DNA from: Azadirachta indica
Lineage: Eukaryota; Streptophyta; Magnoliopsida; Sapindales; Meliaceae
Direction of reading: 5' to 3'
DNA length: 64,000 bases
Assembly (NCBI GenBank): GCA_022749755.1
Contig: CM040447.1
Location: forward strand, 8,330,545-8,394,544
The notes under the pieces are model-generated. The model did no database searches. It was not told the DNA's origin and saw nothing but the letters and a program-made list of their open reading frames with translations. The position numbers and the translations under genes are program-made. Positions 1-16,337 of the stretch are shown piece after piece (position 1 is the first letter of the stretch; each line of letters begins with the position of its first letter).

Positions 1-1082
1 TATTCACAAAATGAATAATTCTTTTAATTGTAGATAAATGTGAATCCTTAGCATTTGCTCGGTATCCTGCACATACTCCTACACTGAAGCTAATATCTAT
101 CTACTAGCTATCAAATACAACAAAATTCTTTAATTTATCATACTCCTGTACAAACTAGGATCAACACTCTTACCACTTTCATCTTTTAACAATTTCGCAT
201 TGCTCCCCATAGGTGTTCTTATGTATTAGGCGGTTTCCAAGCCAAACCATTTTACTAGGTTTTTGGCATACTTACTTTGAGAGATAAAAGTTCCATCCGC
301 AAGCTGCTTAACCCGTAAACCTAGAAAATAAGTTAGTTCACCCACCAGGCTCATCTCAAACACGTTCTTCATTTAGTTAATGAGTTCCTGCACTTTAGTC
401 TTAGAAATGGAACCAAAAACAATGTCATCCACATAAATTTAGGTAATCGTAATACTAAAAGCAAATAAATAATGTTTTATCTACTCCCCTTTTCTTATAT
501 CCCTTTTTACCCAAAAAATTAGCTAAACGCTTACACCATGCTCTAGAAGGCCTTTTTAATCCATACAACACCTTTTTTAGTTTAAAAACATGGTCAAGAT
601 ATGTTAGATCTTTAAAACCTTTAGGTTGTTCTAGATAGACTTCTTCATTCAAAAAAGCACTCTTTACATCCATTTGGAATAATTTGAATCCTGATAAGCA
701 TGCAATAACAAAAGTAATTTCACTAATTCTAACCTAACCACAAGAGCAAAAGTTTCATCAAAGTCAATGCCCTTAATTTGTGTGTAACCTTGTGCAACTA
801 ACCTACCTTTGTTTCTAATTATGTTACCAAATTTATCAATTTTGTTCTTAAAAATCCATTTGTTTCTAATAACATTAGTATGAGTTACTCTAGGTACTAA
901 AATCCACACATCATTTCTCATAAATTATTCTAATTCTTCTTGCATTGCAGGTACCCAAGATTCCTCTAACAAGGCTTCTTTTAAAATTCTCAGTTCAATC
1001 AAGGAAGTGTAACAAACATATTTTGCCATGTGTACATACCTCTTTCTTATAACTATAACATCATTGAGATCACCTATGATAA
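1..1082 (-). pseudogene. Ty1/copia reverse transcriptase / RNase H part (Sirevirus-like), 3' half of split element
   Basis: Reading the minus strand from 1082 to 1 gives the copia pol reverse transcriptase. It starts with the linker (EALLEESWVPAMQEELE), then NDVWILVPR, GRLVAQGYTQ and MDVKSAFLNEEVYLEQPKGF, then the palm motif YVDDIVFGS near position 430, then SLVGELTYFLGLRVKQ and further into the RT/RNase H connection. The catalytic YVDD is intact, but several in-frame stops and frame changes break the reading, so no complete protein can be made. The element continues off the left edge of the window, where its 3' LTR should lie. Its upstream half resumes at 12215 on the other side of the inserted gypsy element. 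Family identity is clear. The Sirevirus assignment rests on the gag and PBS at 12.2-15.5 kb and is an inference. Confidence 0.9.
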
Positions 1083-1087
1083 GGTCT
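1083..1087. repeat. Target-site duplication (GGTCT), left copy
   Basis: GGTCT directly precedes the 5' LTR of the gypsy element and recurs at 12210-12214 directly after its 3' LTR. Five bases is the usual duplication length for Ty3/gypsy integration. The same copia reading resumes on both sides. Confidence 0.85.
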
Positions 1088-2482
1088 TCATGAATGTTTA
1101 AAAGTATAGGTTTATCAAGAGAAATATTATAATTTACACTTAATAATGTTCGTTTGTTCCCCAAAAATGAATCATATTGCTTTATATTGAATTTTAAAAC
1201 ATGAATTAGACTAAATAGTTGATTTTATGCAGGTTTCATATAATGAGCATATCATTCAATCCAAAATATCAATTGAACGATTCTTGGGCTAGACAAACAT
1301 AAACTAATTATTTCACAACTTTGTAAGCCAAAGGTTGGACCAGTTCTAGCACTCAATGGGATAAAATTGGGCTTCAACAGAACTCTCAAGTGCATCTTTG
1401 GACCAGCCCAACATGCTTCTGTATTTTGGCCGTATCTCCCAAAGTACATACTCAAAAATTAAACAGTTGGGTGTTCCAAAAGGCTAATAAAGAGATTTAA
1501 ATTGTTTATGTTTACACATTCTCAAATTTCAACTGGTTGGTTATCAAAAAGAGCCATCATTATAGAAAGGTGGCGGAGAAATGCAGCTTAAACATTTCTG
1601 TCTATTTTCAACATAGCTTACGTTCTACAAAATCAATAAGGGTGAGATATAAACCATTAGAAAGTTGAGTCATCCACCTACAACTTTGAAGAAGACCATT
1701 TCACAAATTTCGGTGGTTTTTATAGTAAAAAACATGTTGCAAGTTGGTAGAGTGTGATTAATTGAAAATTGGCAAATTATGTTCACCCATAGGAGATATC
1801 TTTTATTTTACCTATAAAAAGCAAGATGTGGAAGTGAGGAGGGCTGATCTTAATTATCATTTTTTTCTCTTTTTGTAATTTGAACTTCAATTAAATAATG
1901 ACTTTCTAAATTAGTAATTAGAGCTAAGGGTGAAGTTTTGTTGATTTTATACCATTGTTCTTTTATCATTCTAAGTTGTGCTTCAATGCAAAATCTTTTC
2001 AATTGAGTGAATTCTATTTCTTAAAAGTGTTTTGGTTTGTTGGGAGGTTTGATTCATTATTAACAAAAGGTATACTAAATGCTTGCACATTTTCTACAAA
2101 CCAAAAATAAGGTATATTATAGTTTTCACAAACAAATTGAATGATTAATATTTTATTTTGTTACCTTTTCTTCAAAGAGGTATTATAATGTATTTCAATA
2201 TATTTTATTTAAAACCATCTATTAAGTGATTCTTAATTGAGTTAAAAAAATGAGTAAAAAATGATTTCTATAATTATCAACAAAATAAATCCTTAATGGC
2301 CTAAAAATTAATAATATTAAATTTACATTCAATAAGTAACAAATTCATTTTATTTCATCATATTTGGACATTGGATTTGTGGACCTTGTATAACGTATTC
2401 CTTGTAGACCGACATTCAAACTTCCAAACTTTATTACTTGAGATAACCTATACTTGAGAGTTACAACCTTTAAGTTGTAACA
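1088..2482 (+). repeat. 5' LTR of the Athila-type element
   Basis: Matches 10849-12209 along its whole length in direct orientation. The start should be TG (TGATGAATG in the 3' copy) but reads TCATGAATG here, and the end is ...GTAACA. A TATA-like CTATAAAAA lies at 1812-1820; the 3' LTR has CTATATCAA at the matching place, so only this copy keeps a good TATA box. Confidence 0.88.
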
Positions 2483-2488
2483 AATTTT

Positions 2489-2505
2489 TGGCGCCGTTGG
2501 CAGGG
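2489..2505 (+). other. Primer-binding site, tRNA-Asp type
   Basis: TGGCGCCGTTGGCAGGG begins six bases after the LTR end. Plant tRNA-Asp(GTC) would give TGGCGCCGTTGCCGGGG, so 15 of 17 bases match. This primer type is usual in Athila elements. Confidence 0.85.
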
Positions 2506-2995
2506 AGTACGGTTTATATAAAGTTTACTACTTGTTATTTAATTTTCTTTCACTAACTTTAACCCCTAACTCTAACTCTAACTCTAACTCTAATATTTTT
2601 TTTATTTACTTGTAATTTATTTTCTTTTTATTGGGAGGCTCAGTTGCCCATTTACATTTTCATTTATGGTTGGTTCTACATATACCACCTAAATTTTGTT
2701 GTTTATTTTATTCATGATAAGCTTTACCACCTTTCTTAATTTTCTCTTTTAAGGATTGTATTGTTATTTTCATTTACATTAATTTTCTTAAGAGGAAGGT
2801 TGTACCACCTCTTTTCTTTTTATTTGTTTTATATTGTGCTAACATTTAATTTAATTTTATTATTATTTTATTTTCATTTTATTTATGCTTAATTCGTATG
2901 GTGACCCTCTGTCTCGTCGCTTGGTGAAAGGTAATTTTGAAACTTTTTTTTGAAATTTGTTTGATTCAACTTCACAATCACATACATCTAGCATA
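2506..2995 (+). other. Leader of the gypsy element, with short (CTAACT)n tandem tract
   Basis: Non-coding T-rich leader between PBS and gag. A tandem hexamer (CTAACT)n lies at about 2560-2592; it is not the plant telomere repeat (CCCTAAA). Confidence 0.6.
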
Positions 2996-3890
2996 ATGGC
3001 TGAAGAGGAAAGTGTGCATAATGAACATGAAAATCAACCTGCACGAACCATGCGTGAACATCTACAACCACCTCGTAGTTCTGCTCCTTCACGTTTTATT
3101 TTTCCTCATAATGCTAATAATTTAGATTTAAGCCAGGAATGATTCCATTACTTCTTAGTTTCCATAGTTTAGAATCTAAAAGTCCTTACTTGCATCTTAA
3201 AGAATTTAAGGAAGTTTGTGCCACGTTTAATGATCAAGCTTGTACCCATGAAATTGTTAGGCTAAAATTATTTCTTTTTTCATTAAAAGATAAAGCAAAA
3301 ATTTGGCTTAACTCTTTAAAACCTAGATCAATTGGCACTTGGCATGAAATACAAGGTGAATTTTTGAAGAAATTTTTTCCAACACATAAGACCAATGCTT
3401 TGAAAAGACAAATCCAAAATTTTTCTCAAAATCCAAATGAAGCATATTTCCAATGTTGGGAAAGATTTAAGAATTTGTTAAATTCTTGTCCACATCGTGG
3501 TTTTGAAAAATGATGCACTATACGTTTCTTTTATGAGGGACTAATACCTGAAATAAAACAATTTATGGAAACAATGTGTAATGATGAATTTCTTGACAAA
3601 GGACCTAAAAAAGCCTTAGAATACTTAGACCACTTGGATGAAAATTCACAATCATGGTATAACACTAATTCATCTGAAAATTTAATTAGATCTAATCTTG
3701 TAAATGTTAAAGGTAAATATCACCTTAATCAAGAAGATGATCTAAATGTTAGGACTCCTAGTTTGGCTAGAAAGGTTGAAGTCATGGAAATGAGGAGAGT
3801 TAGGGAAGCTAAGTCTTTGTAAAATGAAGAAATTTGTGGTATTGGTGAAAATATTGGGCACTCAACAAATGAATGTCCATATATTCCTAT
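2996..3890 (+). pseudogene. gag: gag of the Athila-type element
   Basis: Starting at ATG 2996 (MAEEESVHNEHENQP), the reading gives a plant Retrotrans_gag capsid region. Motifs are SPYLHLKEFKEVC, LKLFLFSLKDKAKIWLNSL, FLKKFFPTHKTN, QCWERFKNLLNSCPH and the FYEGL segment. It is broken by a one-base frameshift near 3140, by TGA at 3511-3513 where the family has Trp (TGG to TGA), and by TAA at 3820-3822 where Gln is expected. A zinc knuckle follows at 3835-3876, but its second cysteine codon is GGT (Gly), so the CX2CX4HX4C motif is incomplete. The capsid would package the element RNA. A clear pseudogene. Confidence 0.88.
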
Positions 3891-4668
3891 TTTCAAAGAA
3901 GCGTTTCATAACAAGCAAATGTAATGAATAATTATAGAAAGCCTTTTCCATCTTCTTTTTCAAAAACTTATAATTTTGGATGGAAGAATCATCCCAATTT
4001 TAGCTAGAGGCATGACAACAATGTACACATAATGCCTCCTCAAGGTACATCAAATTTCCATTCTTATGCACCACCACGTTCGAAGAATCTTGAGGAGACA
4101 TTACATGCATTCTTGCAAAGGTAAACAAACATTAATAATCAAACTTCACAAGCCATCAATGAAATCAAAAATACATTATGTACTCTGACTACATCTTTGC
4201 GCACTTGGGAGAAAGGTAAGTTTCCTACTGAAACTCAACCTAATCCTTCTAGTCAATGTCAGGTTTCTATCATAAATGGAGCTCAACTTGAAAATGCCAA
4301 TTCCATTACAACTTTACAAAGTGGTAAGGTTATTGACAAAACCATTTCTCTTAAGGATAAAATGCATGATGTTCCATTAGAGCCAAAAGGTAATGGTAAG
4401 GATGATGATAAGTGCGATGAAATTTAACCATTTGTTGCTAACTGCTTCTTTTCCTCAAAGATTGCAACCAATCCAAAAGTTGAACCAAAATTATGAAATC
4501 TTTGAATTCTTTAAGCAAGTTAAAATTAACATTCCTTTATTAGATGTAATTAAGCAAGTTCCTTCTTATGCTAAATTTTTGAAAGATTTATACACTGTTA
4601 AAAGGAAGCTTAATGTTCAAAAGAAAGCATTTTTAACTGAGGATAAACCATGCTTTACTTGATCTTGA

Positions 4669-5020
4669 TGCAAGTGTTAATCTTTTGCCATATTTAGTGT
4701 ATAAGCAGTTAGATTTAGGTGAGCTTAAACCTACCTCTACAACACTTCAACTTACTGATCGTTCTGTGAAAATACCACGAGGAATACTTGAGAATGTGTT
4801 AGTCTAAGTAGATAAATTATACTTTCCCGTTGATTTTATTGTCTTAGACACATAACCTGTTCCTAATTGAAGTACCCAAATTCTGATCATATTAGGGTAT
4901 CCATTTCTTGCTACATCTAATGCAATAATCAACTGTAGAAATGGAGTTCTAAAACTATCCTTTGGAAACATGACATTGGAAATGAATGTGTTCAATATTT
5001 GTAAATAACCTAGTGAAAAT
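4669..5020 (+). pseudogene. Retroviral-type aspartic protease domain of the Athila-type element
   Basis: The plus strand reads DLDASVNLLPYLVYKQL, LQLTDRSVKIPRGILENVL, VDKLYFPVDFIVLD and ILGYPFLATSNAII, the order seen in plant gypsy proteases. The active-site DLGAS is changed to DLDAS (Gly to Asp). Stops fall at VLV*VDK (4804-4806) and twice after VLDT. About 300 bases of degenerate spacer (3890-4390) with an Asp/Lys-rich gag-pol linker precede it. It would have cut the Gag-Pol polyprotein; it cannot now. Confidence 0.8.
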
Positions 5021-5248
5021 GATGACATGTATGAAGTTAGTTATATTAAGGAACTTGTTCATGACTGTTTTAATGTTTCATCCTTTTCTAATTCTTTGGA
5101 TGCTTGTTTAAATGATTGCAATGATTTCAATTTTAATGAAAATTCTGAAGTGTCTCATATTTATTCCCTTTTAAAATCTTCTCAGGTTTTGGAAGTTAAT
5201 GGATGAAGACCAAAATTTAAAGACTTACCTCAACGTGTTGATAAACCG

Positions 5249-6830
5249 ATGCCATCAAGTGTTCAACCGCCAAAACTCAAATTGAAATCATTACCATCTG
5301 ACCTCAAGTATGCTTTCTTTGGCGCTACTAAAAATTTTCCGGTGATAATTCCTTCTAAACTCAATGCTCTTCAAGAATGTAAGTTGCTTGAAATTCTGAG
5401 ATTGTATAAACATGCCTTCGGATGGACCATAGTTGACATACAAAAAATTAGTCTTTTGATTTACACACATAAGATATATTTGGAAGATAATGCCAAATCA
5501 TCTAGACAAATGCAACATAGGCTAAATCCTAATATGAAAGAGGTAGTGAGAAATGAAGTTCTCAAGCTTTTAGATGTCGAGATCATTTACCCTATTTCTG
5601 TAGCACATGGGTAAATCCTACTCAAGTTGTACCTAAGAAATCTAAAGTTACTATAATCAAAAATGAAAATAATGAATTAATTCCAACTAGAACAATTATT
5701 GGCTGGAAAAAGTGCATTGACTATAGGAAACTCAATTCAATGATTAGGAAAGACTATTTCTTGTTACCATTCATAGATCAAATGTTAAAAAGGGTAGCTA
5801 TATATGCTTTTTATTGTTTTCTAGATGGGTATTATGGGTGTAACTAAATTGAAATTGCACCTGAAAACTAAGAAAAAACCACTTTCACTTGCCTATTTGG
5901 AACTTTTGCATATAGAAGGATGCCGTTTGGATTGTGTAATGCACCAGCTACATTTCAAAGATCCATGCTTAGTATTTTTAGTGATATGGTTGAACGATTT
6001 CTTGAAGTTTGCATGGATGATTTTTCTATTTTTGGTGACTCATTTGATGATTGTTTATCTAACTTGGAAAAAGTTTTGATTAGATGTAAAGAAAAGAATC
6101 TCGTGCTTAATTGGGAAAAATATTATTTCATGGTCATAAATGGTAATGTGCTTGGTCACATTGTCTCATCAAAAGGAATTGAAGTAGATAAATTTAAAAT
6201 TGAATTGATTGCCAACTTGCATATTCCTAAGTCTGTCAAAGATGTTAGATCATTTTTAGGACATGTTGGTTTTTATAGGAGATTTATCAAAGACTTTAGT
6301 GTTATATCAAGACCATTATGTAATCTCTTATCAAAAGATACTCTCTTTGAGTGGTCTGAGTCATGTCAAGAAGCTTTTGTTAAAGTTAAAAGCATGCTAA
6401 CATCTGCTCCTATCATGCAGCCTTCACATTGGACTTTACCTTTTGAAATTATATGTGATGCTAGCGATTATACTGTTGGAGCTGTTTTAAAACAACAAAA
6501 GGACAAGAAACCTTATGTGATTTACTATACTAGTAAAACCTTAAATAGTGTTCAAATGAATTATTCTACCACTGAAAAGGAATTACTTGCAGTAGTATTT
6601 GCATTGGATAAATTTTGATCTTATCTTATTGGTTCACCTATTGTTATTTTTAGTGATCATGCAGTATTGAAATATCTTCTCTCAAAAAAGGATGCTAAAC
6701 TTGGATCAATTAGGTGGATCGTACTACTTCAAGAATTTGATCTCACAATTCAAGACAAAAAAGGAGTATAAAATGTGGTTGCTGATCACTTATCAAGACT
6801 TATGTTTGAAGAACCAATTAAAACAACAGC
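5249..6830 (+). pseudogene. pol: Reverse transcriptase and RNase H of the Athila-type element
   Basis: The N-terminal part (5249-5614) contains LPSDLKYAFFG and HRLNPNMKEVVRNEVLKLLD. A damaged stretch with WVNPTQVVPKK, CIDYRKLNSMIRKDYF and FLDGYYG follows. An open stretch at 5920-6618 then carries RMPFGLCNAPATFQRSM, the catalytic MDDFSIFG (FMDD-type box), LGHIVSSKGIEVDK and SFLGHVGFYRRFIKDFS. The RNase H start is FEIICDASDYTVGAVL and TEKELLAVVFALDKF. A TGA at 6616-6618 replaces Arg or Trp, after which the reading goes on through SDHAVLKYLLSKKDAK to NVVADHLSRL. The DD pair of the RT active site is kept. Frameshifts near 5615 and 5870 rule out a whole protein. Confidence 0.92.
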
Positions 6831-6921
6831 AATTAATGACAATTTTCCTAATGAGCAACTTTGAAGTGTTTCAGCTTTATCTTGGTTTGTTGATGTTGTC
6901 AATTTTCTTGTTATAGGTCAA

Positions 6922-8108
6922 ATGTCAAATCATTGGAATACTCAAGACAAGAAGAAATTTTTAATGGAGGTACACAATTTCTTTTGGGATGATCCATATT
7001 TTTTCAAATATTGCCCTGACCAAATTATAAGGAGATGTGTACATGGCAATGAAATTCAAAATATCATTTCCTTTTGTAGTTCTGAAACATGTGGTGGTCA
7101 TTTTTCTTCAAAGAAAATTGTTGTGAAAATCTTGCAATGTGGAATTTATTGGCCTACCTTATTTAAAGACACACATATATTTTGTAAAACATATGACCGT
7201 TGTCAAAAATTAGGTGGAATAACTCGTTAAAACATGATGCCATTAATCTTATTTTAGTCATAGAAATCTTTGATTATTGGGGTATTGATTTTATGAATCC
7301 TTTTCCACCTTCTTTTGGGTATCAATATATTTTGGTTAAAGTTGACTATGTTTCCAAATAGGTAGAGGCATTTTTTTGTAAAAATAATGATCATAAAATT
7401 GTTTTAAAATTTTTGGAAAAAAATATTTTTTCAAGATTTGGAGTGCCTTGAGCCATAATAAGTGATGGAGGTTTACACTTTTGTAATAAGTCTTTTGAGA
7501 ATTTAATGAAAAAATATGGAATCACATATAAAGTGTCTACTCCTTATCACCCACAAACAAGTGGACAAGGTGAACTTGCCAATGGAGAAATAAAACACAT
7601 TTTGGAGAAAACGGTAAACCCGAATCGTAAGGATTGGTCTTTAAGACTAACCGATGCACTTTGACCTTATCGAGCTGCTTTTAAATCATCACTTGGCATG
7701 TCCCATTATAGACTTATTTTTGGAAAGGCTTCTCACCTGTCTGTAGAATTGGAACATAAAGATTTCTAGGCCATTAAAATGCTTAATTTTGATTTAGGCA
7801 AAGCAAGATCATTGAGAAAATTCCAATTAGATGAGCTCGAAGAAATTAAGAATGAAGTTTACAAGAATTCTAGAATTTACAATGACAAAATGAAGGTGTT
7901 TCATGAAAAACATATCATTAGAAAATCATTTGAACCTTCACAAAAAGTTCTTTCGTATGATTCAAGATTTCATCTATTTCCTGGAAAACTTCGTTCAAAA
8001 TGGACAGGTTCTTTCATTATCAAGATGGTTTACCTACATGGCGCTATTGAGATCGAAAACCCAAAAAATGGTAATGTTTTTAAAGTACCATTTAAAACCA
8101 TTCTTTGA
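6922..8108 (+). pseudogene. Integrase of the Athila-type element
   Basis: The zinc-binding N-terminal region (SETCGGHFSSKKIVVKIL, YWPTLFKDTH, CQKLG) is followed by the core. The core has [13 protein letters not shown] (first Asp), AIISDGG (second Asp, TSD-type) and 35 residues later GQGE (Glu), so the DD35E triad is kept. The C-terminal part is LHLFPGKLRSKWTG and GAIEIENPKNG. Four in-frame stops sit at 7359 (Trp to TAG), 7449 (Arg CGA to TGA), 7662 (Trp to TGA) and 7767 (Trp to TAG). All are single C-to-T or G-to-A changes. One frameshift lies near 7235. It would insert the cDNA into the host genome. No chromodomain follows, in keeping with Athila. Confidence 0.92.
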
Positions 8109-8159
8109 GAATTTTTCTAGCGAGGTAGAGTTTATTACTTTGAAAGAAACCTGTTTATA

Positions 8160-9065
8160 ACACTTGATAATTTTTCTTTGTTTGATTTTAGTTGTTTTCT
8201 CCGTCAAATGACAGATAACGGTATTCTGTGACTCTTCAAGTCGGTTCTTTCACTCCTTTTTTTTTGTTTTTTTTTCTCTTCTTTTCATTGTAGATGTCAT
8301 TTTTTCTATATTGAAAACATATTTTCCTTCCTTTCTTATAGATGTTTTATGAAAAATATACCAAGTTAGGTGTGCAAGATTGATAATGCTTATGCATAAA
8401 AGTATTCCTGAAGATGTGCATTGGATAATTGAAGTGAAGGTACGTTTACCAGGTGAGTTTTCTAATTCATTTGTTTCACGCATGCCTGGTTTAGGTAAGA
8501 GCTCTTTTGCAAAGAAACAAAGAGCGAAAAGGACAAGTGTGTCATAAATGTGCATGTTTAACCTGTAACAAGCAATGTCGTTCTTTAGGGATGGTATCTA
8601 CTAATAGAGAAGATAAAATTCAATTCATTAAGGATGGCCTGAGTAAGGAGTCTTCAAATAATATTCTACTAACTCTTGAGAAGCATCATAGTGGATAGTA
8701 CAACGTGAAATTCTCAATTTGTACACACAATTTCAAAAAGAACGTGATCGTTATAGTTTTGGAAATTTAACTCTAAAAGACCATGTATACCAATTTATAA
8801 GAAAATTGAATCGAAAGCCAATTCTCGACCCATAAAGGGCATTTAAGCCGTTCTTAGACGTAAAATCAGAGGAAGATGTGAGCCACAATCATAAATATCT
8901 GTAAATATTAATTTTTAGCTGTCATTGTTGAAATTTTGATGTTTTAGATTCTAATATTAACTGTTATTTTTGACATTTTTGAATTTTTTTTAATTTAATC
9001 TTTTGTGACAATAGCTGGCTTGCGTCTATTGGTTTAATTAATGCATTTTATTTTTTTCAAGTTTT
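8160..9065 (+). other. Post-pol spacer of the gypsy element with a Cys-rich small frame and an intron-like stretch
   Basis: Athila elements carry an envelope-like region here; I see no convincing env. A 63-codon frame (8507-8698) reads VCHKCACLTCNKQC, a tight cysteine cluster I cannot assign. An intron-like stretch runs from GTAAATATT at 8901 to a T-rich ...TTTTTTTCAAG ending at 9061, just before the LOG start codon. It could allow a spliced subgenomic RNA for LOG. This is inference from splice-site look only. Confidence 0.4.
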
Positions 9066-9758
9066 ATGAATGCAGCACCTCAGCTTCTGTATTTTTATGC
9101 AAAATTTGAATCACTGACGAGAGTAAAAGACTACAAAACTATTTGTATTTTTTGTGGGTCAAGCCCTGAGAAAGGTGAAGAGTTTGTAAAAGCAGCAAAT
9201 AACCTTGGTCGAATTTTAGCTGAGCGAAAACTTAACCTAATATATAAGAGAGAAAGCCTTGGGTTAATGGGGTATGTGTCAACTGCCGCACATGTAAGAG
9301 GAAGTGAAGTTGTAAGTATCATACCAAAGACTTTATCTGCAGGCAACATCATTGGCAAAATGGTTGGAGAAGAACTGATGGTCTCAACAGTGCATAAAAG
9401 AATTGCTAAAATGCTTGATTTTGCAAATGCTTTTATTGTCTTACCAAGTGGTTTTAGGACCTTAAAGGAAATTTTTCAAGTTGCATCCTGAGTACAACTC
9501 ACTGTTCACCAAAAACCCATAAGATTGTTAAATGTTAATGGTTTCTTTAACAAGTTGTTGTCTTTTCTTGATCATGCTGTAGAACAGAACTTTATTTCAT
9601 ACACAGCTCGCAAACTCCTTATTTCTACTCCAATTACTAATAATTTTATCCAACAATTGCAGAACTTTGTTGATGAACCAAATCCAACAATGGCATAATT
9701 AGAATAGTCAAGTGAAAGCAGTAAAAAGCGAAAGTTGGATTTGTCATTTTCTTTGTAA
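9066..9758 (+). pseudogene. LOG-like: LONELY GUY (LOG) cytokinin riboside 5'-monophosphate phosphoribohydrolase copy, intronless, inside a retrotransposon
   Basis: One frame from ATG 9066 to TAA 9756-9758 gives 230 codons, the normal LOG size (about 210-230 aa), interrupted only by three stops. Recognisable LOG segments are TICIFCGSSPEKG, NLGRILAERKLNLIY, SLGLMGYVSTAAH, IIPKTL, VGEELMVSTVHKRIAKM, ANAFIVLPSGFRTLKEIFQV, then QKPIRLLNVNGFFNKLLSFLDHAV and FISYTARKLLISTP. LOG enzymes release free cytokinin from the nucleotide form. Here the signature PGGxGTxxE reads PSGFRTLKE and GGGSxGLMG reads KRESLGLMG, so the active site is altered. Stops at 9489 (Trp TGG to TGA), and near 9697 (Gln to TAA) and 9703 (Trp to TAG), all look like deamination. 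Host LOG genes have several introns; none is seen, which points to capture of a spliced mRNA. The tail SSESSKKRKLDLSFSL is basic and not part of the LOG fold. Confidence 0.88.
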
Positions 9759-10834
9759 GTTTTCTTATCTTTTTACTCATTGCATTTTGTTATTCTTTTT
9801 TTAGTTATTTTTGCTTAAGTTTGTTTCAGATCTTACTTATGTTTCAATAACTACTATCTCAGGTAATATCCTCTATACTGTACCTCTTTGCATTCAAATA
9901 TTGAGGACAATACTACAATCTAGTTGGGGGGAGTGTAGTTGACATAAGTAGCCATTTTTATATGTGTCAAAAAAAATTGTTCATAATTTGTAAGGATAGT
10001 AAAGTAAGGAGTAATCTTACTCCTGAGGCACATTTTAATAGATATGCATTATCATTTGTTTTGATTTTTGAATTTCATAATAAAGAATTTATCATTCACT
10101 TTCTTTTGAATTGATCAAATCTATAGACTCTCACAATTTCAAAACAAATTTTGTTCAGATACTCAATCAGTAAGTATTTATAAACTATCTTTCACACACA
10201 CACTTTAATACATGATTGTGGATGACATATTGGAGTTTTACAATATTTAAGCTCTTTTGTTTTGTCCAAGGTAGCAACTAAGGGTAAAAAAAAGAAGAAA
10301 AAAATAAATAAATAAATAAGTAAAAATTCTAAACAAAGCTTTTACTTAGTAACTGGGTTTCTTACTTAATTAACAGTGAATGTTTGTGTAAAACGGTAAA
10401 ATTTTGGTATGAATAAGTTCGTAATCTTAACTCAAGTAATTAAGTCCGTATTAGTGTTTTAACACCTCATACCCTAATGCCAATTAGTCTGAGAGTTATT
10501 GGCCAAAAGCTCGCTATATGGGTTAAGGTTAGGTTAAAAAAAAAAAGGATAGAAATAATATTTGCCCAAAGAAGTTTACCTTGACAAAATTTAGAACCAA
10601 TGTTGTTGGACTCCGATTAAGTCCCATAATGTGTATTAGTTACAAAAGGCATAAAAAGAAGGTTTGTTAATAACTTGACTGATAAGTATTTGATACATAT
10701 ATAATAAATCTTTAAGTGAGAGTTTGTTTATTTTGAAAAGATAAAAAGAAAAGGAATGGTTATTACTTTGAATGTAAATTCTATAAATCAATTCTAAAAT
10801 GATATTGCTTAGATTACTAGAAACTAGTAATAAG
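9759..10834 (+). other. Non-coding 3' region of the gypsy element with an internal G-rich purine tract
   Basis: No reading frame is supported. TATTGAGGACAATACTAC followed by TTGGGGGGAGTG at about 9898-9936 resembles the conserved GAGGACAAT...TTTGGGGG block that follows the last gene in many Tat/Athila elements and may be an internal polypurine tract. A purine-rich AAATAAATAAATAAG run lies at about 10300-10324. Confidence 0.5.
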
Positions 10835-10835
10835 T

Positions 10836-10848
10836 TGGTTGGGGGGTA
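10836..10848 (+). other. Polypurine tract of the gypsy element
   Basis: GGTTGGGGGGTA lies immediately upstream of the 3' LTR start TGATGAATG at 10849, where second-strand priming occurs in LTR elements. Confidence 0.7.
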
Positions 10849-12209
10849 TGATGAATGTTTAAAAGTATAGGTTTATCAAGAGAAATATTATGACTTACAC
10901 TTAATAATGTCTGTTTGTTTCCCAAAAATGAAACATATCCCTTTATATTGAGTTCTAAAATATGAATTAGACTAAATAGTCGGTTTTGTGCAAGTTCCGT
11001 ATAATGAACGTATCTTTCAATCCAAAACATCAATTGATATGATTATTGGGCTGAAAAAATATAGACTCATTATTTCACAACTTTGTAAGGCAAAGGTTGA
11101 ATAAGTTCTAGCAATTAATGGGATAAAATTGGGCTTCAACAGAACTTTCAAGTGCATCTTTAGACCAGCCCAACATGCTTCTGTATTTTGACTGTATCTC
11201 CCCAAATACATACCCAAAAATTAAACAATTTGGTGTTCCAAAAGCCTCACAAAGAAATCTAAATTTTTTATGTTTCAACTGGTTAGATATCAAAAAGAGC
11301 CATCATTCTAGAAAGGCGGTGGAGAAATGCAATTTGAACATTTCTGTCTATTTTCAACACAACTTACATTCTACAAAATCAATAAGGGTGAGATATAGAC
11401 TATTACAAAGCTGAGTCATCCACCTACATATTTGAAGAAGACAATTTCACAAATTTCGATGGTTTTTATAGTTAAAAATGTGTAGCAAGTTGGTAGAGTG
11501 TAATTAATTAAAAATTGACAAATTATGTTCAAACATGGAAGATATCTTTTGTTTTACCTATATCAAGTAAGATGTGGAAGTGAGGAGGGCTGATTTTAGT
11601 TATCATTTTCTTCCCCTTTTATAATTTGAACTTCAATTAAATAATGTCTTTCTAAATAAGTAATTAGGGCTAAGGATGAAGTTTTGTTAATTTTATAGCA
11701 TTGTTCTTTTATCATTCTAAGTTGTGCTTTAATACAAAATCTTTTTAATTGAGTAAATTCTATTTCTTAAAAGTGTTTTGATTTGTTGGGAGGCTTGATT
11801 CATTGTTAACAAAAGATACACTGAATGCTTGCATATTTTCTATAAACCAAGAACAAGGTATGTTATAACTTTCACAAATAAATTGAATGATTAATCTTTT
11901 ATTTTGTTACCTTTTTTCCAAGAGGTATTGTGATGTATTTCAATATATTTATCTTCTGATTAAGACCATCTATTAAGTAATTCTTAATTGAGTTAAAAAA
12001 TGAGTAAAGAATGATTTCTATAATTATTAACAAAATGAATCCCTAATGCCCTAATAATTAATAATATTAAATTTACATTTAACAAGTAACAAATTTATTT
12101 TATTTCATCATATTTGGACATTGGATTTGTAGACCTTCTATAACGTATTCCCTGTGGACCGACTTTCAAACTTCCGATACTTGAGAGTTACAACCTTTAA
12201 GTTGTAGCA
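10849..12209 (+). repeat. 3' LTR of the Athila-type element
   Basis: Matches 1088-2482 in direct orientation, starts TG and ends CA (GTAGCA). It is about 35 bp shorter than the 5' copy through small indels, for example missing a stretch near its end that the 5' copy has at 2428-2450. Confidence 0.88.
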
Positions 12210-12214
12210 GGTCT
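12210..12214. repeat. Target-site duplication (GGTCT), right copy
   Basis: Second copy of GGTCT flanking the gypsy element; see 1083-1087. Copia coding sequence resumes immediately after it. Confidence 0.85.
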
Positions 12215-12640: not shown

Positions 12641-13150
12641 CAAGTTAACCTTTCCGAATTTCATAAGGAGTCTTGCCTATGTCAGGGCATAAATACACAG
12701 GATTAATCGTATAGCATGCTATGTGAACAACTTCTGCCCACAATCCTTTTGCCAACTTCTTTGAGTTCAACATAACTCGTGCCATTTCTTGCAAAGTTTG
12801 ATTTCTCCTTTCAACAACCTCATCTTGTTCCAATGTTTTAGGAGGCAAAAATTCATGTGCAATGTCATATTTATTACAAAAATCAGCATAAATAGTGTTT
12901 TCAAATTCTTTTCCATGATCACTTCTAATTCTAACTATTTTGTCAGCATTACAGTCCTTTTCATTACCTAATTTCACATATTTCTCTAAATGCATATCAG
13001 ATTTTTCTCTAACAAAATCTGCCCATGTATATTGAGAGAAGTCATCTACACATATAAAGATGTATTTTTACCTCTTATACTTTCTACCTGAACAGGACCC
13101 ATGAGATCTATATGGACTAATTGCAGAACCTTGGAAGTGGATGTATGGCT
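12641..13150 (-). pseudogene. Copia integrase core
   Basis: Reading the minus strand: VLQLVHIDLMGPVQVES (first catalytic Asp), FICVDDFSQYTW, then an open stretch at 12645-12995 with IVRIRSDHGKEFEN (second Asp), FCNKYDIAHEFLPPKT, QDEVVERRNQTLQEMARVM (Glu) and AEVVHIACYTINPVYL. The D-D-E triad of the rve core is therefore all present. A stop after KYI.. near 13060 and frame changes separate it from the GAG-pre-integrase block. It inserts copia cDNA into the host genome when intact. Confidence 0.9.
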
Positions 13151-13182
13151 TATAGCTTTATGTTGAGACTTGAGTTGTTTTC

Positions 13183-13720
13183 CTAGCTGACATGATCCGT
13201 ATACACCTTATTGCTTCTTCTTGAGTTTTGGAATATCACAAAGTGCACCTGTGTTACAATTTTAGTTAGATTTTTATAATTCAAGTGTCCAAGCTTTTGA
13301 TACCACAATTCTATGTCATCATGATCTGTCTTACGACATATGAGTGGATGTGTCAAAATATAATAGTTATCGAGGATCTTGTCCCATCCAAAACACAATT
13401 ATCAAACTTGTCAAAGACTTCATATTTTCTTTGCATAATTTTACACTGAGATTTTGATCACAAATTTGACTAATTTTAATCAAGTTTGCCTTCAAATTTT
13501 CCATATATAACACATTCTTTAGTTTTGGAAACCTTCCAACATTAAGCGCTCCTTGCCCAAATACTCATCCTTTTGCTCTATCTCCAATAGTCACATTACA
13601 TTCTAGGTAATCTTGATAATTTATCAAGCTTTCTTGTGATCTTGTCATGTGTGTAGAACATCTGTTGTCAAAATACCACGCATTGGTTACACATTATTTC
13701 AATGATATATGAATAATAAA
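13183..13720 (-). pseudogene. Copia protease remnant and GAG-pre-integrase domain
   Basis: From about 13700 down the minus strand reads AWYFDNRCSTHMT, the copia protease motif, where DSGCS has become DNRCS (two G-to-A type changes that remove the active-site DSG). LSRL..., DYLECNVTIGD and GKG.. blocks follow, then the GAG-pre-integrase domain at 13183-13398 with DDIELWYQKLGHLNYKNLTKIV. Stops break the reading between the two. Confidence 0.85.
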
Positions 13721-13732
13721 ACTTCTAATTTC

Positions 13733-15437
13733 TTATTTCTTTACCCACATTTGTTTAATTCTTGGACAAGTTTTAAACCTTGATTTCTTTTTACATTTAA
13801 GGAAATTCAGAAATTTAAAGCATTTAGGACGAATATGACTCTTATCACAAAAATGACAAGTAGGAACAAACCTATATGTCGTACCTTTTGAACTATAGGA
13901 ACATCTGTCTGAAATATTACTTTGTGATAGATTTGTTGTATGTGATGCTTTTACAAAGACATTCTTGGCATTCAAGGATTTTTCGTTTTGGAAGCCAATT
14001 CCTTCACGATTACAGACATGTTTATCCATTGTCAAAATATGGTCTAATTTAGACGTACCTGAGTTAAGCATCTTCAAAGATTTCTAAGTGTACTCCAATT
14101 CACATTATACTCCAGCTCACATTATAGGTCATTTATTTTTTATCCTTCCCAACAATATTCAATTCAAAGTTGTTGAGAACTCTCATTGATTCAGATCTTT
14201 CACTCATGAGACAATTCATTTGTTTTTGCAAGGCTTTGTTTAAATTACACACTTCTAACCATTTGTTAAGCATTAATTCATAAGAAGAATGTATTGTTTC
14301 CAAATACAACTTACTTCCATTAGAACTTGCTTCTGAGTTTGTCTCAAAATCACCTGGAGTAATACTAGTCATTTTTCCAAATTTGTGGCAACAAATATTG
14401 GTGGCTTCTATTGTAACAAAGCTGAATTCCTGCAAGTTTTCAAAATTTGTCGTAGTATTAAATGCAATGAAATTACTTACAGTGTTAGATGTTTCTCTTC
14501 TAATTCATCATCACTCTAGGTTGTTCTCATTACTTTTGACTTCTTTTTGAGTGTGTTGGCACTTTCGGCTTATATGTGTCTAAATCCTTAACTTTCCCTA
14601 CATTGAATTCTCTTATTCTTGTTAGCTTCAAGTCTTTTTAACAATAACTTACCTCTTCTAGGTACTTTCTGATTTGTCTTTAATTTATGGCCCATTCTTT
14701 TGAGAATCTTATTAAAATTCTTACTCATAACTGCAAGAGCCTCAGATTCTTCAAAATCTAAAGTTTCTTCATCTTCATTGCTTTGAGTTTCAGTGATTTA
14801 AATGCAAGACTTTTGACCTTTTTACGATCTTTTAGATTCATCTCAAAAGTCCTTAGTGATCCCACTAGCTCTTTCATTTTTAGTTTGTCAATATCCTTAC
14901 TTTCCTCAATTACGGTAACTTTTGCTTGAAACTTCTAAAGAAGTCACCGTAGAATCTTTCACAAAAGCTTCATCTTTGAATATTCTTCACCTAAGGCATA
15001 AGATTCATTAGCAATATCATTCAACTGAGAGGAAAAATCAGCAAGTGTTTCATCATCATGCATTCTCAAATTTTCAAATCTAGTAGTAAGCGTTTGACTC
15101 TTAGATCGCTTCACTACCGATGTTCCTTCGTGAGTTACTTTCAAAATGTCCTATGCCTTTTCGTGAATTCACATGTAGAGATCAATTTAAATTGATTTAC
15201 ATCAATTGCGTTAAAAATAGCGTTTAGAGCCTTTGAATTAGAGTTAGCCATGCAATCTTCCAAATAGGTCGATGTCTCTTCTGGTTTTGGCACAACGTTG
15301 CCCATATCATCAATCATGTTCAGAGGCATCCAATCAATTAGTACTACCCTGCAAGCCTTTTCATCTATTAACTTGATAAACGCTCTCATCCTACTTTCCA
15401 ATATAAGTAATTTGTTCCATCCAATAAGGGTGATCAT
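13733..15437 (-). pseudogene. gag: Copia gag (Sirevirus-like), with degenerate zinc knuckle
   Basis: In reading order on the minus strand: 15437-15141 (RMRAFIKLIDEKACRVVL, SNSKALNAIFNAIDVNQF), 15144-14959 (VTHEGTSVVKRSKSQTLTTRF, MHDDETLADFSSQLNDIANES, the UBN2-type capsid), a damaged stretch at 14436-14958, a Glu/Leu-rich likely coiled-coil piece at 14435-14133, and 14077-13733 with a cysteine motif. That motif, at 13820-13858, is CX2CX3HX4C, one residue short of the standard CX2CX4HX4C knuckle. At least four frame breaks occur. It would form the particle shell and bind RNA. Confidence 0.85.
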
Positions 15438-15519
15438 GAAATCGATCCTCCTTATCCATACCTAGACAAATACAAATCAAAACACCAATATCTCACCAAC
15501 AAAAAAAAGTTAGAGGCAT

Positions 15520-15531
15520 GCTTTAATACCA
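15520..15531 (-). other. Copia primer-binding site (initiator tRNA-Met type), mutated
   Basis: The minus strand reads TGGTATTAAAGC; the standard plant site is TGGTATCAGAGC. The two differences are a C-to-T and a G-to-A. It lies three bases inside the LTR end. Confidence 0.8.
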
Positions 15532-15533
15532 AT

Positions 15534-16212
15534 TGATACATAGAATAAAATCCAAATTTTAAATCACCAACCAATTAATATACCAATTTAATTAAAATTT
15601 GCACAAACAATAATAAATAAGTAATGAGAGTAAAGAAAGAAGACACGTAAATTTTTAACATGGTTTGGATCTTCCTAATCCTACATCCATAGGGCCACGC
15701 CTAAAAAAAAAACAATCCACTAAGAAATAATTGATTACAGACACCGATAAACTTATACAAACCACAGACTCCCTCTATGCTGTTGCTACCATGTTGAACC
15801 TTCTTAGGTGGCCTTATTTTATGAGATCCCCTCGCTTTAAATATTGATGAACTCCCTTCAACAAACTAAATTTTAAGTTCTTCTCTTTAGGAACACACAC
15901 ATATTGCCTCAATATCTACAAGAAAAACTCTCAAACTCTTTTCTAACAAACACTGCATTGACTTCAATGAAAAAATCACACAATATAATTTTCTGCCATA
16001 TCATAGTCCCTGAATCAATTGGCTTTTATATCTCCTCACACAAAAGACCTAATCCCTCGAGGAATATTACATGTTCCTAATACACTTAGGTAAACATAAT
16101 TCTCTATCGAAAAGAATCCTTACTTTACAAAGATTCCTTGTTTCCATAAATTCCCATTTTTGCAGGACTTCTTCACCAAGTTGCCATATAATGCCAATCA
16201 AAAGTCCTAACA
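15534..16212 (-). repeat. 5' LTR of the copia element
   Basis: On the minus strand it begins TGTTAGGACTTTTGATT (ending at plus 16212) and ends ...TATCA next to the PBS. A TATA-like GATATAAAAGCC on the minus strand lies at about 16021-16033. Only one LTR is in the window, so the boundaries rest on TG...CA ends and the PBS position. If correct, the flanking TAATG at 16213-16217 is the target duplication. Confidence 0.78.
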
Positions 16213-16337
16213 TAATGACTAAAGAATTAGAGCTTTTAAAATTATAACATGAAAAAGTTTTAATTTGCTCACATTTTATTAATAATGTTGGTTTTATTGA
16301 ATATAAGCTTGCTATATTGTGTTATTATTTTTCACAG

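Follow-up and report, generated by a model that had tools for sequence, protein, structure and literature searches.

A decayed Athila-like retrotransposon of Azadirachta indica belongs to a family that carries a tailed LOG gene beside a carlavirus-type nucleic-acid-binding protein gene

Results

Structure of the element

We analysed a stretch of 64,000 nucleotides from Azadirachta indica (contig CM040447.1; hereafter "the window") and found that it contains an LTR retrotransposon at 1088-12209, flanked by the 5-bp target-site duplication GGTCT at 1083-1087 on the 5′ side and at 12210-12214 on the 3′ side. The element is read on the forward strand, and its 5′ LTR (1088-2482) and 3′ LTR (10849-12209) form a direct repeat that is 89.7% identical over aligned sites and 86.7% identical in a BLAST alignment that includes gaps. 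A putative primer-binding site (TGGCGCCGTTG..., 2489-2506, forward strand) follows the 5′ LTR after a six-base spacer. The site may be of the tRNA-Asp type: TGGCGCCGTTGGCAGGGA at 2489 is similar, with mismatches, to the tRNA-Asp complement.

Further downstream on the same strand are the remains of gag at 3121-3822 (Pfam Retrotrans_gag, 7.6e-20 on 3121-3510, while 3514-3819 scanned alone against Pfam gave no match), a reverse transcriptase and RNase H piece at 5872-6618 (RT_RNaseH_2, 1.1e-28; RVT_1, 1.6e-12) and an integrase zinc-binding region at 6865-7230 (Integrase_H2C2, 5.9e-5, 23.5 bits, slightly below the cut-off of 25.5). The decayed region at 7560-8157 is called the integrase C-terminal region from its position and from homology, being 88.8% identical to an open stretch of another copy; its part 7770-8105 had no match when scanned alone against Pfam. 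Two additional genes, both decayed and both on the element's strand, come next: a gene for a carlavirus-type nucleic-acid-binding protein (NABP) at 8290-8832, recognized by tblastn with a 182-aa open copy (1.7e-55), and a LOG gene with the remains of a C-terminal basic/LxLxL tail at 9042-9755. The first-pass annotation had put LOG between pol and the 3′ LTR. That position holds, with two corrections: the reading frame at 8290-8832 lies between pol and LOG, and the LTR begins 1.1 kb after LOG. At about 9922-9937, 0.9 kb 5′ of the 3′ LTR, a G-rich purine run (ttggggggag) resembles a second polypurine tract, and an altered form of this run was found again in another copy, L003.

The proposal of an intronless LOG reading inside a retrotransposon was borne out by the LTRs and the target duplication described above, by Pfam and by alignment. 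Positions 9042-9755 align in one frame and over the full length with an open LOG copy of the same genome (tblastn, 70.7% identity, E 5e-105), with no intron interrupting the reading, and Pfam Lysine_decarbox (PF03641) matches both open pieces of the window LOG above its cut-off (6.3e-13 and 2.9e-10). Compared with its open relative, the window LOG lacks a start codon at the matching place and has three in-frame stops and two frameshifting indels, and because of these lesions its sequence is that of a pseudogene. The neighbouring NABP is decayed as well (no start, one stop, two frameshifts). Judged by these readings, neither protein can be made whole from the window copy, which is a relic.

On the minus strand, window positions 455-1224 and 12645-16321 hold remnants of another element on either side of the LOG element. 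The left flank matches the copia-type domain RVT_2 (1.6e-14, above the cut-off) and the right flank the rve integrase core (3e-7, slightly below it). When the two flanks were joined by script, one of the three frames was open through the junction. These flank domains, together with the frame that is open across the joined flanks, make a single insertion of the whole LOG-bearing element into a copia element the most likely history.

Recurrence of the gene order across the genome

We searched the genome (280.8 Mb in 21 contigs) for further copies. In a DNA search with the window LOG, 40 of the 210 candidates were scored, and each of these aligned across the greater part of the query. A search with the PF03641 profile yielded 285 candidates; the 150 that were scored were all above the cut-off, some of them possibly being host exons or processed copies. 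The 40 places from the DNA search and 17 more from the best-scoring 30 profile matches make up 57 non-overlapping LOG loci, a sample that is biased toward close and open copies. The main objection that the earlier proposal had foreseen, namely the absence of a second LOG copy in the family, is itself contradicted by these loci. Searches with the LTRs returned 861 and 866 candidate places, of which 40 were scored in each.

The surroundings of LOG recur together with the gene. An NABP reading frame lies 5′ of LOG on the same strand at 56 of the 57 loci and the end of the integrase at 52, a 3′ LTR stretch follows at 54, and one further locus has an inverted LTR. The suggestion that LOG is carried by an element family within the same flanks is therefore upheld by these counts, and the order integrase, NABP, LOG, 3′ LTR is seen through the genome sequence. 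Most copies of LOG are decayed (41/57): open frames were found for 16 of the 57 LOGs, 21 of the 56 NABPs and 8 of the 52 integrase ends, and LOG and NABP are both open in seven. Many LOG matches come as two places with equal scores on a single chromosome (C2, C5, C7, C8, C10 and C11; C8:1642044 and C8:2325920 are one such pair). This pattern points to duplicated segments or to duplication in the assembly, and the copy counts are possibly inflated by assembly duplicates.

The PGGxGTxxE and GGGSxGLM motifs are not matched in the window LOG, and the first-pass annotation had supposed that such changes might predate the stops. The other copies tell against an old change: LPGGFGTLEE is present in 36 of the 57 LOG copies and YGGGSLGLMG in 32. 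Given these canonical forms, the altered motifs of the window LOG are, by this comparison, decay of that one copy.

The family also contains younger insertions than the one in the window. The K80 distance between LTRs is 0.113 for the window element and 0.0196 and 0.0307 for two other LOG-bearing copies, whose LTR pairs are 98.1% and 97.0% identical (89.7% in the window). Assuming substitution rates of 1.3e-8 and 6.5e-9 per site and year, the window copy would have inserted 4.4-8.7 My ago, and the two others 0.75-1.5 and 1.2-2.4 My ago.

Could LOG have inserted separately into the window element after the latter had landed? What speaks for this is a brief stretch of 4-15 A that precedes the LOG start in 50 copies, and nothing else. 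Against it, the same order is found at 57 loci, 56 of which have NABP 5′ of LOG, and apart from the duplication flanking the whole element no target duplication was noticed. The recurrence refutes a separate insertion, to which we assign next to no probability, and leaves a gene that travels with the family.

The element-type LOG protein and its C-terminal tail

Open copies were used to characterize the protein. One open LOG copy matches TIGR00730 at 1.6e-53 and the AtLOG3 structure sequence 2a33 at 4e-64. Three open copies score 171-181 bits on TIGR00730, above the cut-off of 96.35, and 116-122 bits on the narrower, bacterial-named equivalog NF058542, below its cut-off of 300. For P0002, a close relative in the database (84% identity over 87% of the query), the AlphaFold model has a pLDDT of 83.9 and superposes on 2a33 with a TM score of 0.95 by target length and 0.77 by query length, the tail residues 202-211 and 214-216 having a pLDDT below 50. 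In an alignment of 41 sequences, no substitution occurs at Arg98 or Glu120, and Glu121, with which the motif ends, is conserved in at least 90%. From these motifs and the modelled fold, the element LOG likely retains the release of free cytokinin. It has the HMM family, the modelled fold and the catalytic motif in common with plant LOG enzymes such as AtLOG3 and AtLOG8, and differs from them in being intronless, multi-copy and equipped with a basic/LxLxL tail.

A homologue search covered 5.8 billion proteins. Of the 8000 candidates scored, 7656 reached E ≤ 1e-30, and we examined the best 120 as listed; all counts on these rest on predicted proteins and favour open frames. For most of the 120, the element-borne status is inferred from clade, tail, many copies per genome and NABP-LOG links. 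Plant names, counted by eye, stand on 54: 31 are from Reevesia, 9 from Diplodiscus, 6 each from Populus and Xanthoceras, and one each from Parasponia and Melia, and these belong to four rosid orders (Malvales, Malpighiales, Sapindales and Rosales). Of the named relatives listed, the one from Melia azedarach ranks first by identity, with 87% over 79% of the query. PGGxGTxxE is present in 99 of the best 120, and in 109 of 120 ordinary plant LOGs (LOG1/LOG3-type) that were retrieved with AtLOG3 as the query.

The tail, about a dozen residues long, distinguishes the two groups. Of the best 120 element-type LOGs, 96 have a basic run among their last 25 residues, 100 end in an LxLxL-type pattern ([LMI]xLxL, among the last 14 residues), and 84 have both. 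One or both parts are missing in the other 36, which include all six named Xanthoceras proteins. In the 120 LOG1/LOG3-type plant proteins, neither the basic run nor the LxLxL pattern was found (0/120 for each). In the available part of PMC9956375, the EAR repression motif is given two consensus sequences, of which LxLxL is one, and EAR-type motifs bind TOPLESS according to the portion available of PMC10942257. The tail of the element LOG is accordingly worth a specific prediction: from its two motifs it would serve nuclear import and TOPLESS binding. A comparable design is known from the TOPLESS-binding effectors HaRxL21 and Jsi1, in which, as far as the available excerpts describe them, the parasite's own protein carries the EAR motif, as the element LOG does. 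These are oomycete and fungal effectors, whereas TOPLESS binding by the element LOG is predicted from the motif.

The main competing view of this protein is that it acts as a cytokinin-releasing enzyme only, the tail being a nuclear signal or a contact for Gag assembly instead of a TOPLESS ligand. The core motifs and the modelled fold are LOG-like, in keeping with this view. Furthermore, of the three basal element-type proteins in the tree described below, two (P0087 and P0118) carry the basic run without LxLxL. The view has to contend with the contrast at the C-terminus, where LxLxL, an EAR form in the available part of PMC9956375, is found in 100 of 120 element-type LOGs and in 0 of 120 host LOGs. 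We consider it rather unlikely, and retain the prediction of a nuclear, TOPLESS-binding tail. The remaining basal protein, the double-LOG model P0001 from Xanthoceras, lacks both tail parts. Because LxLxL is missing in all three basal proteins, the EAR part may have been gained later, or may have been lost in them.

One capture and long retention

In a tree of 65 proteins, a branch with a support of 99/95 sets all 43 element-type LOGs apart, and 21 host LOGs, among them AtLOG8 and an intronless LOG1-like copy of the A. indica genome, form a separate group (100/98), with a host LOG sampling that is narrow and mostly of the LOG1/LOG3 type. The simplest reading of this tree is one ancient capture of a host LOG transcript followed by long retention; transfer between plants may also have occurred.

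The intronless LOG1-like copy, L071 (G000:C7:771200-772050), and a same-scoring place at G000:C7:5951041-5951613 are 68% identical to AtLOG3. L071 lacks the element tail, has altered motifs and groups with the host LOGs; it appears to be a processed host LOG that arose separately.

Repeated, independent capture of host LOGs in different plant lineages is a further way to obtain such elements. L071 lends this some plausibility by indicating that LOG transcripts do get reverse-copied in this genome, as does the narrowness of the host sampling. The 43 element-type LOGs nevertheless fall in one clade (99/95) from which the intronless copy is excluded, and the tail is common to proteins of different orders. 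We therefore judge independent captures very unlikely and keep to a single ancient capture.

The dN/dS comparison suggested in the first-pass annotation was run in three ways on the element-borne genes. None of them showed selection on LOG within the genome, and the pooled measure did not separate in-frame from wrong-frame ratios. Rows with less than 80% coverage were removed, which kept 57 of 57 LOGs, 55 of 56 NABPs and 34 of 52 integrase ends. For LOG, the pooled pN/pS was 0.707 in the coding frame and 0.401 and 0.657 in the two wrong ones; the corresponding values were 0.691 against 0.459 and 0.634 for NABP, and 0.564 against 0.553 and 0.767 for the integrase. The in-frame ratio drops with distance, to 0.555 for LOG, 0.37-0.40 for NABP and 0.30-0.39 for the integrase, and three more copies had ratios of 0.53 to 1.58. 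In the comparison of singleton with widely shared changes, for which near-identical copies were collapsed to 47, 44 and 29, N/S was 2.95 versus 1.88 for LOG (p = 0.12; p = 0.64 when every change found in at least two copies counts as shared), 3.32 versus 2.29 for NABP (p = 0.26) and 3.67 versus 1.47 for the integrase (p = 0.013), the sole significant one of the three. The differences for LOG and NABP lie in the direction that selection predicts. Collectively, post-insertion decay dominates the within-genome codon signal, and the case for selection, as read from the sequences, rests on conservation between orders and not on codon data.

This bears on the possibility that LOG is passive cargo, that is, a cDNA captured by chance and copied without benefit, the conservation reflecting recent amplification only. 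The within-genome dN/dS does not discriminate against it, 41 of the 57 LOG copies are broken, and the preference of databases for open frames weakens the argument from conservation. On the other hand, drift should erode both the core and the tail, yet a single clade spans four rosid orders with PGGxGTxxE kept in 99 of 120 proteins and the new tail in 84. Passive cargo is unlikely on this balance, and we favour a LOG that has been retained.

The upstream NABP gene

The two Pfam profiles for the carlavirus-type NABP are PF05515 and PF01623. For the open copy L018 (182 aa), the E-values are 8.3e-7 with Viral_NABP and 1.1e-4 with Carla_C4, and both matches exceed the Pfam cut-offs. Viral_NABP is passed by three open copies (29.6, 28.3 and 23.9 bits; cut-off 23) and Carla_C4 by two of the three (22.6 and 22.3 bits; cut-off 20.9), L032 passing and L026 failing at 17.3. 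A homologue search gave 467 candidates, of which 410 match at E ≤ 1; Xanthoceras, Populus, Acer and Rhamnella are named among the 120 listed. Of 42 homologues scanned at E ≤ 0.01, 37 match Carla_C4 and 36 match Viral_NABP. The structure model of NABP is poor (pLDDT 61.6), and one pattern scan of viral contigs with NABP returned four matches, none of them a relative.

The Rhamnella gene model P0236 contains Carla_C4 and LOG domains in one model, and in each of the NABP/LOG protein pairs P0128/P0023 and P0124/P0103 the contigs of the two members have the same length (8723 and 4511); these observations suggest that NABP and LOG are linked elsewhere too. Within the A. indica genome, at least 33 of the 42 Viral_NABP matches have a LOG place within 2 kb, as compared with a list of 63 LOG places. 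Nine Viral_NABP places, such as G000:C13:10992373 and G000:C12:7410379, have none within 2 kb in that list and are either LOG-less family members or neighbours of LOG copies outside the list.

According to the available part of PMC12172455, carlavirus proteins of the NABP family are RNA silencing suppressors, and the member from chrysanthemum virus B is a transcription factor that induces hyperplasia. By analogy, the element NABP likely suppresses RNA silencing or is a nuclear zinc-finger regulator. It resembles the carlavirus cysteine-rich, nucleic-acid-binding proteins in that an open copy exceeds both profile cut-offs, and differs from them in being encoded by a retrotransposon and about 182 aa long.

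The AT-rich stretch at 8904-9062 had raised the idea that NABP and LOG are joined through an intron into one protein. Splice sites between the two genes were inspected by eye, and the idea was set aside, because in the five open copies measured NABP ends at a stop codon of its own and LOG begins 289-304 nt further on.

A run of 4-15 A, variable in length, ends in the LOG start codon in 50 of the 57 copies. It has a counterpart in a lysine run in one Xanthoceras protein and is absent from two others with upstream sequence. A relic of polyadenylated RNA between NABP and LOG is a possible origin of this run.

Discussion

Relation to known elements

A LOG domain in Gypsy elements is already known. 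PMC9289625, in its available part, reports the YgdH (LOG) domain in Gypsy consensuses of Citrus sinensis and C. clementina and, without its filter, in Populus trichocarpa Gypsy as well, and states that this agrees with Steinbauerova 2011. In our data, the Populus homologues fall in the element clade. The account in PMC9289625 takes two sentences in the text available, which name no carlavirus-type partner, no tail and no LOG tree, and in the extra-ORF review PMC7264820 the words YgdH, lysine, cytokinin and LOG are absent. In the open-licence literature searched, as far as its texts were available, no report describes a carlavirus-type partner or a LOG tail in such elements.

An env-like ORF after pol is not universal in the Athila lineage, Diaspora being without one. 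The window element has the layout gag, pol, extra ORF, LTR in common with Athila, Calypso and Diaspora, and its putative primer-binding site also lies a few bases after the LTR; it differs in that its pol-LTR interval holds NABP and LOG. The excerpts available of PMC1142308 describe for Calypso and Diaspora a tRNA-Asp primer-binding site a few bases after the LTR, and for the related element Tpb1-1 an apparent retrogene with a 47-base poly-A in the pol-LTR interval. The pieces of the pol-LTR interval that we scanned had no ATHILA or env-like match. A second, archaeal-type RNase H marks the Tat clade (PMC6317226, available part); none was found in the ORF pieces scanned, which cover part of a fragmented pol. 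We file the element as Athila-like only, since no ATHILA or env match was obtained and NABP and LOG occupy the interval, and regard membership of the Athila lineage as likely.

A proposed role for the cassette

Our main reading, to which we give a probability of roughly 60%, is that the window contains a decayed element, likely of the Athila lineage, whose NABP and tailed LOG likely act jointly on host silencing, hormone and transcription. Under this reading, a host LOG transcript would have been captured once, long ago, and the cassette would be expressed together with the element. The NABP protein would blunt silencing or regulate transcription, while LOG would release free cytokinin and its tail would direct it to the nucleus and recruit TOPLESS-type corepressors. 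Cells that transcribe the element would then divide or stay permissive, and more copies would reach the germ line.

A bolder version, which we offer tentatively and would not wager on, is that the element lineage built a host-manipulation cassette of its own from a carlavirus-type zinc-finger protein, possibly derived from viral RNA, and a LOG acting as a nuclear TOPLESS ligand, and that this cassette was kept across rosids in place of the envelope gene.

Should the cassette work as predicted, an endogenous retrotransposon would be using pathogen-type tools, namely a protein of the silencing suppressor type, a hormone enzyme and a corepressor-binding tail. It would then become testable whether transposons raise their germ-line copy number via host cell division and transcription.

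Consequences for annotation

The Populus proteins P0057, P0068 and P0094, with 'LOGL10' in public records, are element-type by sequence and tail, and P0057 ('LOGL10') was placed in the element clade of the tree. Some annotated LOG genes are thus likely, from their sequence, to be transposon copies, and element-type proteins entered as ordinary LOG genes, as with 'LOGL10' in Populus, would inflate the counts of the LOG family.
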